Positions 1,252-3,883 of a DNA stretch of 64,000 nt are shown here, piece by piece. Location of the stretch: assembly GCF_000154725.1 (NCBI RefSeq), contig NZ_DS544873.1, forward strand, positions 4,886,649-4,950,648. Reading direction: 5' to 3'. The translations under genes and the position numbers were made by a program. The DNA is from Kordia algicida OT-1. Its GTDB lineage: Bacteria > Bacteroidota > Bacteroidia > Flavobacteriales > Flavobacteriaceae. The notes below the pieces were generated by a model. That model did not search any database and was not told the origin of the DNA. It was given only the letters and a program-made list of their open reading frames with translations. Within the stretch, counting starts at the first letter, position 1; each line of letters begins with the position of its first letter.

Positions 1252-1278
1252 GCAAATAACCAACCATACATATGATGC

Positions 1279-1329
1279 TAGCCTTTGTCTTTTTGAGGAT
1301 TCAAGAAGAAACAGAGGCTAGTTTTTTTA
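1279..1329 (+). terminator. Rho-independent terminator after the Tat-signal gene
   Basis: CTAGCCTTTGT and its complement ACAGAGGCTAG (one wobble) form a stem with an A/G-rich loop, directly followed by seven T residues at 1323-1329. It lies 27 bp after the stop codon of the upstream gene. Confidence 0.85.
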
Positions 1330-1400
1330 ACTTAATTATTTTAAAACGTTAAATTCAACACAAATTCTATAAGAAATACTATTTTTATAGGATTAATTTC

Positions 1401-1509
1401 GCGTGAAGGATAGAGGCATTGTTGAAGCTCCTCGTAGAGAGCGACTGCCGAAAGCCTGACCACGAAAGTACACGAAGCAAAGCCGAAGTGAACTTTTGTG
1501 GGCACGCCC
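1401..1509 (+). ncRNA. candidate structured RNA element, flavobacterial intergenic type
   Basis: Four nested helices can be drawn by eye. GCGTG (1401-1405) pairs with CACGC (1503-1507) and closes the element. GGCA (1415-1418) pairs with TGCC (1446-1449), and within it GCTC (1427-1430) pairs with GAGC (1439-1442). CCACGAAAGT (1460-1469) pairs with ACTTTTGTGG (1492-1501) with one G-U. The conserved-looking strings GCGTGAAGGATAGA, CCGAAAGCC and GGCACGCCC recall elements I remember from other flavobacterial intergenic regions, but I cannot name the Rfam family with certainty. It is GC-richer than its surroundings and ends 15 bp before the amidohydrolase start, so it may be a leader or an independent small RNA. 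The only apparent GTG start upstream (1498) falls inside the last helix. Confidence 0.65.
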
Positions 1510-1524
1510 AAAAACCAAACAACC

Positions 1525-2610
1525 TTGAAACGAAAACTACGCATCAACGGACATTCACATTTGTTGCCTTATCCTGAGCAAATTCCTCAGTTTATGAAGG
1601 AAAAAAAGATTTTTTGGGTAGATGATGAACGGAAATATATGTTGCAAGACGATTGGAAACGTCCTGTAACGGACTCTAGTTTTTTCTTGAATGAAAAGCT
1701 AGATTGGATGGCGCGAAATAAAATAGATCATGCAGTCATCTTAAATCTATCGCAATTGTATGGAAACGGTTTACGCCTAGAAGCAATGAAACATGCATTA
1801 CGTTTTCAAAATGATTTTAATGCGGAAGTACAACAAAATCATCCATCGAAATTTACCTGCGGATTTGTAGTGCATCCAGGATTTATACACGGTGCTTTGT
1901 GGGAAATTGAACGTTGTGTAGAACAGTTAGGATTGCGCGTGTTGTGTTTGCCAACGCACTTTATGGACTCTATCGGGCAATGGCGTTGTGTGTTTGATGA
2001 AGAAAATGATCCAATTTTTGAACTGGCTGATAAATACAAATTAGCTATCGAAATTCATCCGTATGATGGTGATAAAATGATTAAATTACAAAATGTTAAT
2101 TGGCGTTTTCATCTAATTTGGATGCTGGCGCAATGTGGTGATGCGTATCATTTTTACACGTTGAACGGAATGCAAGAACGTTTTCCGAACATTAGAACCT
2201 GTTTTGCGCATGGCGGACAGTTGGCGCAAATGAATCTTGGAAGAAGAATTCAAGGATTTGACGGTCGCCCAGATTTGTTTGAAGGTAAAGTGCATCCGCG
2301 AAAAGCTGTTGGACATCCAAATATTTACTTTGATACGCTAGTTCACGATACTGATTCGTTTAAGTTAATGGTAGATCGACAAGGAAGTCAGCAGATTTTA
2401 ATGGGATTAGACGATCCGTATCCGTTGGGAGAAATGGAAAGCGCACCACAATCTTCGTATCCTGGAAAGTTGCTCGATTTGGCTATGGAACGTAATATAA
2501 TCGATCAAAATCAATACGATGACATTTGGGAAGACAATGTGCTTCGTTGGTTGTTTGGAGAAGATGATGAAGCTAAAAAAGAATTAGTTCGTAAGATTTT
2601 AGGAGCATAA
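1525..2610 (+). CDS. amidohydrolase, ACMSD-like decarboxylase
   Basis: This is a metal-dependent amidohydrolase-2 (TIM barrel) protein closest to 2-amino-3-carboxymuconate-6-semialdehyde decarboxylase of tryptophan/kynurenine breakdown. Metal ligands are visible: HSH at residues 10-12, EIHP near 178, AHGG near 229 and the Asp of GLDDPYPLGE near 296. The last motif is typical of ACMSD. There is no ATG before the HSH motif. TTG 1525 gives MKRKLRINGHSH, a normal family start, with an A-rich leader before it. GTG 1498 is less likely because it lies in the preceding RNA helix. Other kynurenine genes are absent from the neighbourhood, so the pathway role rests on the family alone. Confidence 0.85.
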   Translation: MKRKLRINGHSHLLPYPEQIPQFMKEKKIFWVDDERKYMLQDDWKRPVTDSSFFLNEKLDWMARNKIDHAVILNLSQLYGNGLRLEAMKHALRFQNDFNAEVQQNHPSKFTCGFVVHPGFIHGALWEIERCVEQLGLRVLCLPTHFMDSIGQWRCVFDEENDPIFELADKYKLAIEIHPYDGDKMIKLQNVNWRFHLIWMLAQCGDAYHFYTLNGMQERFPNIRTCFAHGGQLAQMNLGRRIQGFDGRPDLFEGKVHPRKAVGHPNIYFDTLVHDTDSFKLMVDRQGSQQILMGLDDPYPLGEMESAPQSSYPGKLLDLAMERNIIDQNQYDDIWEDNVLRWLFGEDDEAKKELVRKILGA

Positions 2611-2743: not shown

Positions 2744-3883
2744 ATGACAAATGTAGAGCAGTTTCATAATCTGGCACATATTTTTATTTCCTTTATTGGA
2801 GCTATTTTACTATTGGCAATTTATTCGAATATTCGGAAGCGTTTTCGTCAAATTTTGGAAGAAGACGAATCGCAAAAACGTGTTGATAGCGGATTGTTGT
2901 ACCTCAGTTTGGCTATGTTTGTTTGGGTTGGTTCTGGAATTTGGGCGTATGCGTCGAAACATTTTGAATTTTCAGAAACAATGACGTATCAAATTGGCGT
3001 CAACTTACTATCAATTGTAAACAATCTGTTTCTGTTGATGGCACTTTTTTACTTTTACTACGCACCAAAATTTATCTACAATAATATCAAAAACGTTAAA
3101 ATTATTATCGGAATCATCATTGCAGTGGCTTCCGTAACTTTAGTAATGGCAGGTGTTTTTGGTGAAAATAATATGTATGCGAATATTAAACTCAATGCTG
3201 TTCCTGATTTGATTTTGTCAGGTTTTCTGTGCTTTTTACTATTGATTTCGTTTTACAAAACCTTTTTACATCGCGGATTAAAATTGGTCGCCATGATTTC
3301 GGTAGTCATTATGATTTTAATTTTTGCATCACAATTGCCAGAAGTATTTTTAGATTTCAATGATGAGTTTACCACATTACTCATCAAAATTATTGCAAAA
3401 ACATCGTTGATTGCACTATTCTTAGTATTGGCGACAAGCTGGGTAATTCAGTTAGCAAATACACCGCGACCAAACGAAATGCGCATTCGTTTTTTAGATT
3501 GGTCGTTGATTCAATTAAGTATTCCATCAAAAAATATCAACAATGCTCAAGTTGATTTTGGTTCAAAAACGACACAGTATAAAAACTTGTTGAAATTTGC
3601 AATTCGTCGTGCGAATGGAAAAGGTGATTTACAAAGTATTTTGGTAAGTGCTGGTGGCGAAATTAAAAACCAAACCTATCTTACGCGAATCATTGAAAAT
3701 ATCAACGAAATATTGCAGTTAAGTAACGAACAACAACTAGAACGTAGAGACTTGTTTACGTTTTTAGGCGAAGGAAAATACCGTTTGCGAATGATTCCTG
3801 AAAATATTTCCATTGATGAAGGCTTGTTGCACGAATTCATCGGAAGTGCTGAAAACACTGAATATTCTTCACTTTGTAATTAA
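2744..3883 (+). CDS. seven-transmembrane protein with cytoplasmic C-terminal domain
   Basis: Seven hydrophobic helices lie between about residues 10 and 245, including IFISFIGAILLLAIY, LFLLMALFYFYYA and LIALFLVLATSWVIQL. A soluble tail of about 130 residues follows (GKGDLQSILVSAGGEI, ISIDEGLLHEF). The layout is like a membrane sensor with a small output module, but I recognise no kinase, cyclase or DNA-binding motif, so no function is proposed. It stands alone: 133 bp from the previous gene and 120 bp before the transporter. A small hairpin (3882-3902, AATTGTG/CACAATT) follows the stop codon. Confidence 0.75.
   Translation: MTNVEQFHNLAHIFISFIGAILLLAIYSNIRKRFRQILEEDESQKRVDSGLLYLSLAMFVWVGSGIWAYASKHFEFSETMTYQIGVNLLSIVNNLFLLMALFYFYYAPKFIYNNIKNVKIIIGIIIAVASVTLVMAGVFGENNMYANIKLNAVPDLILSGFLCFLLLISFYKTFLHRGLKLVAMISVVIMILIFASQLPEVFLDFNDEFTTLLIKIIAKTSLIALFLVLATSWVIQLANTPRPNEMRIRFLDWSLIQLSIPSKNINNAQVDFGSKTTQYKNLLKFAIRRANGKGDLQSILVSAGGEIKNQTYLTRIIENINEILQLSNEQQLERRDLFTFLGEGKYRLRMIPENISIDEGLLHEFIGSAENTEYSSLCN

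Follow-up and report, generated by a model that had tools for sequence, protein, structure and literature searches.

Flavo-1 (Rfam family RF01705) is a structured motif dispersed in flavobacteria, and the part of Weinberg et al. 2010 that concerns it lists it as 'RNA? y, cis-reg? n' (PMC2864571). In the passages of a Flavobacterium psychrophilum transcriptome study that deal with Flavo-1, its matches are described as lying indistinctly sense or antisense to transcribed regions, with many outside them (PMC9723704). Our literature search on Flavo-1 returned mentions only, and the passages of the two relevant papers that touch on it (PMC2864571, PMC9723704) assign it no function. The same F. psychrophilum passages describe structured leaders in a member of the family Flavobacteriaceae, several of which coincide with Flavo-1 matches; others are named upstream of single genes such as pheA, hisG or alaS, unlike the element described here, which is tied to no one gene (PMC9723704). 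REP sequences offer a further likeness, being short, dispersed, stem-closed and intergenic; a section of PMC12306157 places many of them within 15 nt after a stop codon and, citing Liang 2015, gives E. coli REPs ≤15 nt past stops as stalling ribosomes. The present element is larger than a REP (about 70–150 nt), and where a REP is a simple short palindrome it forms a three-way junction with conserved inner loops, a polarity and a stop phase. REPs are also said to carry a conserved tetranucleotide tag, GTAG/CGTC.

The element was encountered in a 64-kb stretch of Kordia algicida OT-1 DNA (64,000 nt, genome positions 4,886,649–4,950,648; hereafter the window), directly before a gene for an ACMSD-like amidohydrolase. 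Our analysis shows that it is one of at least 15 own-genome copies of a family-wide structured element rather than a feature peculiar to the ACMSD-like gene.

The window copy and its leader

The locus contains the following features.

1272–1327 (+), terminator-like hairpin with a T run, downstream of the preceding gene, by reading of the sequence
1380–1387 (+), promoter-like −7 box TATTTTTA, a 7/8 match to TAnnTTTG
1401–1507 (+), structured element, type II (window-like) variant of a Flavo-1-related family, from fold (z −3.34), covariance model and covariation
1401–1405 (+), P1 5′ strand GCGTG, closing the three-way junction and pairing with 1503–1507
1407–1409 (+), P2 5′ strand AGG, pairing with 1455–1457
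1410–1414 (+), conserved inner loop, 5′ side ATAGA (consensus AUUGA), from column identity in the copy alignments
1415–1418 (+), P3 5′ strand GGCA, pairing with 1446–1449
1419–1445 (+), type II apical arm, with a bulge and GCTC (1427–1430) pairing GAGC (1439–1442) as P3b
1446–1449 (+), P3 3′ strand TGCC, partner of 1415–1418
1450–1454 (+), conserved inner loop, 3′ side GAAAG, from column identity in the copy alignments
1455–1457 (+), P2 3′ strand CCT, partner of 1407–1409
1460–1501 (+), P4 hairpin, a 10-bp stem (1460–1469/1492–1501) with one G-U pair
1503–1507 (+), P1 3′ strand CACGC, partner of 1401–1405
1525–2610 (+), ACMSD-like amidohydrolase gene with a TTG start (PF04909 Amidohydro_2, E 2.6e-10)

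A preliminary description of this DNA had drawn four helices within 1401–1509, including the GCGTG/CACGC closing pair and a 10-bp stem with a G-U pair, and all are present as it placed them. The predicted minimum free energy of 1401–1507 on the plus strand is −37.2 kcal/mol, against a mean of −26.2 for shuffled sequences (z −3.34, 0/200 shuffles as good), and P1, P2 and P4 form a three-way junction in the predicted fold. The reverse strand folds more weakly (z −1.70, 7/200 shuffles as good), and the sense strand folded as DNA gives z −2.83 (2/200). Covariance model R1 was trained on seven trimmed copies from this genome and scores the window copy at 88.7 bits (E 5.7e-16, whole genome searched), a score that is not independent because the window copy is one of the seven. 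A chance fold was ruled out by the shuffled energies together with covariation in both sets of copies described below. Downstream, the window copy is followed by CCAAAAACCAAAC, and on reading it lacks the G+C-rich hairpin plus U run of an intrinsic terminator or attenuator. Elsewhere in the locus, the arms of the 1272–1327 hairpin also pair in two chance miRNA alignments (Rfam, E up to 10), and the ORFs at 667–1251 and 2744–3883 have no Pfam match at E 0.001.

'ACMSD-like' is the name given to the amidohydrolase gene in the preliminary description; the family support for it is Amidohydro_2, and its protein matched no NCBIfam family at E 0.001. The TTG start at 1525 is conserved in 11/11 same-genus genomes, and the element, which had been thought to end 15 nt before it, ends 17 nt upstream. 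The relevant part of PMC6414381 gives TAnnTTTG as a promoter consensus. At the position of the box, TAnnTTTA is present in 11 same-genus orthologues in an alignment of the locus, and transcription would start downstream of the box at 1380. By reading the alignment, all 11 Kordia orthologues keep the promoter-like box and 9 keep at least 4 bp of P1; the inner core is whole in only 3/11, two of them type II (G000 and G003) and one type I, split by an insert (G008).

Translational control of the ACMSD-like gene, raised in the preliminary description, is possible because the element fills the leader between the promoter-like box and the TTG. The part of that suggestion that does not hold up well is a dedicated regulator of this gene, which is unlikely because most copies analysed elsewhere are antisense to the gene they face, often past the stop codons of unrelated genes, and two precede tmRNA.

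Covariation and the relation to Flavo-1

For comparison among copies we analysed 122 of the 146 Kordia matches to R1 and 109 copies from other genera, the latter being the best-scoring among the matches listed and hence biased to conserved copies. One candidate (L034, E 0.87) was left out as noise, and L098, at the same place as L072, was counted once. Both resulting alignments, A3 (100 Kordia copies) and A5 (99 other-genus copies), were fitted to the R1 structure and lean towards it, the copies share ancestry, and the shuffles ignore relatedness; read with these properties in mind, the values in A3 are 94.6% of cells paired and covariation 0.375, versus 0.128 for shuffled and ≤0.058 for slid alignments, and those in A5 are 97.4% paired and covariation 0.258, versus 0.081 and ≤0.049. 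In A5, 13/18 pairs are doubly changed, and 0/500 shuffles are as high on every measure. The corresponding counts in A3 are not clearly distinct from shuffling: 12/18 pairs are doubly changed versus 9.8 (33/500 shuffles as high), and there are 30 pair types versus 28.2 (121/500). The covariation check that the preliminary description had proposed among homologues thus supports the structure in both sets. A structure predicted from A5, whose columns were already R1-fitted, recovers P1, P2 and the P4 base, together with most pairs of P3 and P3b.

The helices differ in how strictly they are kept. P1 is paired in 99.0% (A3) and 99.4% (A5) of cells, with double changes, and over 231 rows it is nearly wobble-free (1142 Watson-Crick, 4 G-U, 5 A-C and 4 other cells). 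The first pair of P2 is doubly changed in 46/100 (A3) and 26/99 (A5) copies, and P3 occurs in compensated forms including GGCA/TGCC, GCAA/TTGC and GGTA/TACC. Most failures to pair fall at the last P3 and last P3b pairs of R1, which account for 79/97 unpaired cells in A3 and 26/46 in A5; the last P3 pair itself is unpaired in 38/98 cells of A3. The two basal pairs of P4 are conserved (99.5% paired in A3, 98.5% in A5), and the remainder of that hairpin is free to vary in length and sequence. Three inner pairs added in A3 give covariation of 0.353 versus 0.122 shuffled, with no excess of pair types (34 versus 34.1). Among these inner columns, 12–120 holds a standard pair in 80/100 copies (U-A 70, A-U 9, G-C 1) and is unpaired in 20, the window copy itself having A-A; 26–113 is G-C in 81, U-G in 10 and unpaired in 9. 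The inner loop is strongly conserved, with identity of 0.91–1.00 at columns 10, 11, 13 and 14 of its 5′ side in A3 and A5, and of 0.84–0.99 (A3) and 0.94–1.00 (A5) across the GAAAG of its 3′ side. Unpaired columns 6, 10, 11, 27, 76, 77, 84, 86, 87 and 91 are at identity 1.00 in A5.

Searched with Rfam 15, the window has no match at or above any family's gathering score. Around the element (1250–1650) RF01705 gives no match even at E 10, the other low-scoring Rfam matches there being chance, and the window copy stays below the RF01705 gathering score of 42 bits. Similarly, no Rfam family fell on the element at E 0.01 in 20 window-type loci from other genera, of the 109 taken. The preliminary description had proposed a 'known or unnamed flavobacterial RNA class' and an Rfam check; it was right in substance, the element being family-wide, related to Flavo-1 and unmatched by Rfam 15. 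RF01705 and R1 nevertheless coincide in place and strand at 3/15 own-genome copies, two of them over the RF01705 cut-off (51.9 and 43.8 bits) and one under it (36.6). With E below 1e-4, RF01705 has matches at 8 places of the own genome; in 14 control genomes it gave below-cut-off matches (E up to 1) in 5 and none over the cut-off.

Both are dispersed structured motifs of flavobacteria, and the core GAUUGA-GC ... GC-GAAAGC and its nesting are common to the two. The Flavo-1 model is without P1 and P4; the window type adds both, giving the three-way junction. The apical arm also differs: that of Flavo-1 is AUCCUUU/AAAGAU, as carried by type I copies at orthologous sites (with AUCCUUUU/AAAAGAU among them), whereas that of the window copy is GCUC/GAGC with UUGUUGAA, the type II form. 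In still other copies the arm is lengthened by inserted repeats. As with Flavo-1, there is no fixed gene association, with 98/149 family genomes and 101 clusters of facing genes represented. Because the window copy is unmatched and yet three other own-genome copies match RF01705, we judge that the element is an uncatalogued relative of Flavo-1 that differs from it in having a closing stem, in adding a second hairpin and in the make-up of its apical arm. Some 60 nt from one Flavo-1-like copy (locus L029) lies a SAM riboswitch (RF00162, 79.9 bits, 1625–1727 of that locus, minus strand).

Spread, placement and history of the copies

In the K. algicida OT-1 genome (5,033,129 bp), R1 detects at least 15 copies at E below 1e-3, further copies having first been found by DNA search. 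The 11 same-genus genomes hold 4 to 24 copies each, at least 146 in total; two of these loci, L050 and L046, agree at every base with named Kordia records over 3107 and 3077 bases. Across Flavobacteriaceae, R1 matched 98/149 genomes (one per genus, E up to 1e-5), and in a sample of the phylum 16/296 genomes were positive (E up to 1e-6), all in the window's family, with 14 further genomes of that family negative. All copy numbers are lower bounds, with 150, 31 and 15 candidates scored per genome at the levels of genus, family and phylum. An exact core pattern occurs in 92 stretches, and the named carriers beyond Kordia among the 80 matches listed include Algibacter, Hyunsoonleella, Lacinutrix, Gelidibacter, Winogradskyella, Bizionia, Tenacibaculum, Aquimarina and Dokdonia. 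Plasmid and phage records searched by blastn contained no match to the element, nor did viral contigs searched with one exact pattern, a weak test; mobile carriers of these kinds were rejected on that basis.

Placement follows a polarity. The CCCAAA end of the element faces an ORF, usually antisense to it and past its stop codon, or sense and before its start as in the window. Both neighbours are antisense at 77 of the 122 Kordia copies and sense at 24, with 8 copies in convergent and 8 in divergent settings and 5 with one side undetermined; counted by 38 locus groups, the figures are 23 both antisense, 9 sense, 5 convergent and 1 divergent. The gene at the CCCAAA end is antisense in 80/109 copies from other genera and sense in 29/109. 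Its stop codon falls in a span from 4 nt inside the element end to 14 nt past it in 59/80 of the antisense-facing copies from other genera and in 40/87 of those in Kordia, so the rule is looser in the latter. Among the sense copies from other genera, 11/29 lie 10–30 nt from the called start; context ORFs are longest-ORF guesses, with firm stops and uncertain starts, and 6/29 sense distances are consequently negative.

The facing genes form 101 clusters, 73 antisense and 28 sense, and 26 recur across two or more genera, frequently with identical spacing (−4 for a queD-like gene in six genera, +2 for a trpE-like gene in four). Names over the NCBIfam cut-off are serS, uvrB, HAAO, paaE, fructose-bisphosphate aldolase, trpB and 3-oxoadipyl-CoA thiolase; the queD-like, trpE-like and heterodisulfide-reductase-like proteins have matches below it. 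One reading phase is common to 29/41 antisense clusters with a near stop (p 1.2e-6). The element end may simply supply the stop itself: at the queD-like ORF the stop is made at the element junction, as TAG|GGCG or GGCA (L304–L307, L313, L316, L320, L322–L325, L329).

Transcription signals were counted with one representative per Kordia locus group. A TAnnTTTG box lies ≤40 nt upstream of 11/39 sense-facing representatives, versus 1.4 by shuffling, and sense copies precede serS, uvrB, HAAO and the ACMSD-like gene of the window. In two genera a tmRNA gene (ARAGORN) lies 10–16 nt from a sense copy (L183, tmRNA at 1092–1484, minus; L186, tmRNA at 1600–1993, plus). There the copy has a promoter-like box on one side and the tmRNA gene on the other, so the element can also stand before genes that are not ordinary translated ORFs. 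The TAnnTTTG box shows no excess upstream of antisense-facing copies (6/109 versus 5.6 shuffled), and a sense promoter of their own was rejected for them. In the stretch from an antisense copy to the following co-directional gene, promoter boxes number 12/79 versus 3.6 shuffled. Terminator-like sites beyond antisense copies number 9/79 in the gene's direction, versus 1.2 shuffled, and 16/79 in the opposite direction; because the former exceed shuffling, at least some antisense copies lie in a 3′ UTR. In antisense-facing copies, P1–P4 without P3b contain 36 G-U versus 11 A-C cells on the sense strand, a count uncorrected for relatedness. Since G-U is tolerated there even though the neighbour's mRNA carries the antisense, the sense strand is likely the folded one, as RNA or as single-stranded DNA.

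Old sites, in-place arm replacement and lineage homogenisation are all evident. At the queD-like locus, in the best 30 of 139 matching genera, R1 found a copy in 13 (E 0.01); reading added one further copy and one degenerate remnant and left 15/30 empty. On a weak queD tree (1 starred branch of 27), the filled and empty states need 4 changes versus 10.4 shuffled, and within the filled sites the split into types I and II takes 4 as well. Copies within a genome (0.796, n=211) resemble one another as closely as copies at the same locus across genera (0.789, n=84), and both exceed unrelated pairs (0.759, n=5464); the closest paralogues are up to 0.97 alike, yet their flanks are only 0.39–0.69 identical. 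No clean recent insertion with a target duplication was seen among the loci compared. Recent gene conversion between the PaaE-like and fructose-bisphosphate aldolase loci of one genome (G009) was suspected from equal bit scores and dismissed, as the sequences differ.

Explanations for the element and its placement

Our leading reading, on which belief and doubt are evenly balanced, takes the element to be REP-like and chromosomal, serving in the window as a structured leader with a passive effect. The element would be copied, swapped or converted at the DNA level by a putative enzyme recognising the fold of the sense strand, and would persist where it borders an ORF, some sites being perhaps old enough for several genera to share. 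In the window it would be transcribed as nearly the entire leader of the ACMSD-like gene, where stable folding 17 nt ahead of the start may passively govern how long the mRNA lasts and how readily ribosomes reach it; that it is a ligand-sensing switch for that gene is improbable. No copying enzyme was identified, which counts against the REP-like reading. 'Passive' may in turn undersell the element, because exact positions common to several genera make a real regulatory function possible. The companion transposase of REP-RAYT systems is lacking here: the own genome has 0 matches to Y1_Tnp (PF01797) at E 1e-5, so an own RAYT would not be driving the element now, and with Y1_Tnp present in 11/27 genomes holding at least 10 copies, a RAYT-driven REP was rejected as the general cause. 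A past role is still conceivable because Y1_Tnp is commoner in element-bearing than in element-free family genomes (39/98 versus 10/51, Fisher p 0.017).

The somewhat higher frequency of Y1_Tnp would also suit a doubtful alternative that we nonetheless take seriously, in which the copies are purely selfish, MITE-like mobile DNA whose folded single strand is recognised by a transposase, the window copy being neutral and decaying in the genus. Dispersal in both orientations, other repeats nested inside copies, lineage homogenisation, the sense-strand wobble bias and, by reading, an interior lost or replaced in 8/11 same-genus orthologues at the window locus are all as expected of such DNA. Yet the own genome has no Y1 transposase, blastn of plasmid and phage records and one exact pattern run on viral contigs found nothing, and the same position is held in several genera (queD-like, trpE-like and others); these shared positions, the clustering of filled sites on the weak tree and the compensated stems imply long maintenance. 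By analogy with the REP effect near stops (a section of PMC12306157, citing Liang 2015), the element might instead act at ribosomes or mRNA ends, hindering terminating ribosomes or 3′ decay when past a stop and limiting initiation when before a start. We think this unlikely. It could draw on the stops within 14 nt, the phase lock in 29/41 clusters and the copies in 3′ UTRs (terminator-like sites at 9/79 versus 1.2), but the antisense RNA of the window copy folds weakly (z −1.70), more terminator-like sites point the opposite way (16/79), and the phase might simply reflect a stop provided by the element's own end (TAG|GGCG). A pure 3′-UTR role is further counted against because the wobble bias sits on the strand opposite the neighbour's mRNA.

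Gene-specific control of the kynurenine-pathway genes, ACMSD-like and HAAO, by a riboswitch or leader is very improbable. Sense copies do precede HAAO genes (3-hydroxyanthranilate dioxygenase) in four genera (G046, G078, G107, G025), each with an ACMSD-like gene near that HAAO locus, and the window copy sits in a leader, downstream of a conserved promoter-like box. A riboswitch or gene-specific leader should, however, keep a steady sense position before the genes of one pathway, and this element faces 101 gene clusters, 73 of them antisense, with ten named facing genes of many functions, its interior not being kept in 8/11 same-genus orthologues. That the family is an independent, sense-transcribed, trans-acting sRNA is scarcely to be expected: the Rfam type of Flavo-1 ('Gene; sRNA') and the sense-strand wobble bias speak for it, against which stand the want of any promoter excess before antisense-facing copies (6/109 versus 5.6) and, in the passages on Flavo-1 in PMC9723704, matches indistinctly sense and antisense to transcribed regions, many outside them.

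More tentatively, the copies may represent a new class of chromosomal element whose docking at the edges of ORFs has a constant polarity and reading phase. It would bring or overlap the stop of the gene it joins, exchange its apical arm in place between the two architectures, and be kept in position across genera for its function, with a putative enzyme maintaining it. Were this so, the element would serve as punctuation between genes that is peculiar to this family; such a gene-border element would be of a new kind, and the family carrying it is large and well cultured. Flavo-1, a computed motif of 2010, is thus joined by a bigger relative, as yet uncatalogued, whose placement follows rules that make function testable, namely the ORF-facing polarity, stops within 14 nt, a single phase and arm swapping at orthologous sites. 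For annotation, such leaders should not readily be named gene-specific riboswitches.

Additional palindromes accompany some copies. Some antisense copies, for example L024, L029 and L045, have a small extra hairpin (TTCCCGATTTCTCGGGAA or similar) immediately before GCGTT, and several own-genome copies have repeat-like palindromes (CACTTCGACTCCGCTCAGTG; CATTACGAGGAG..CGCAATGAC) nested within their apical arm or P4.
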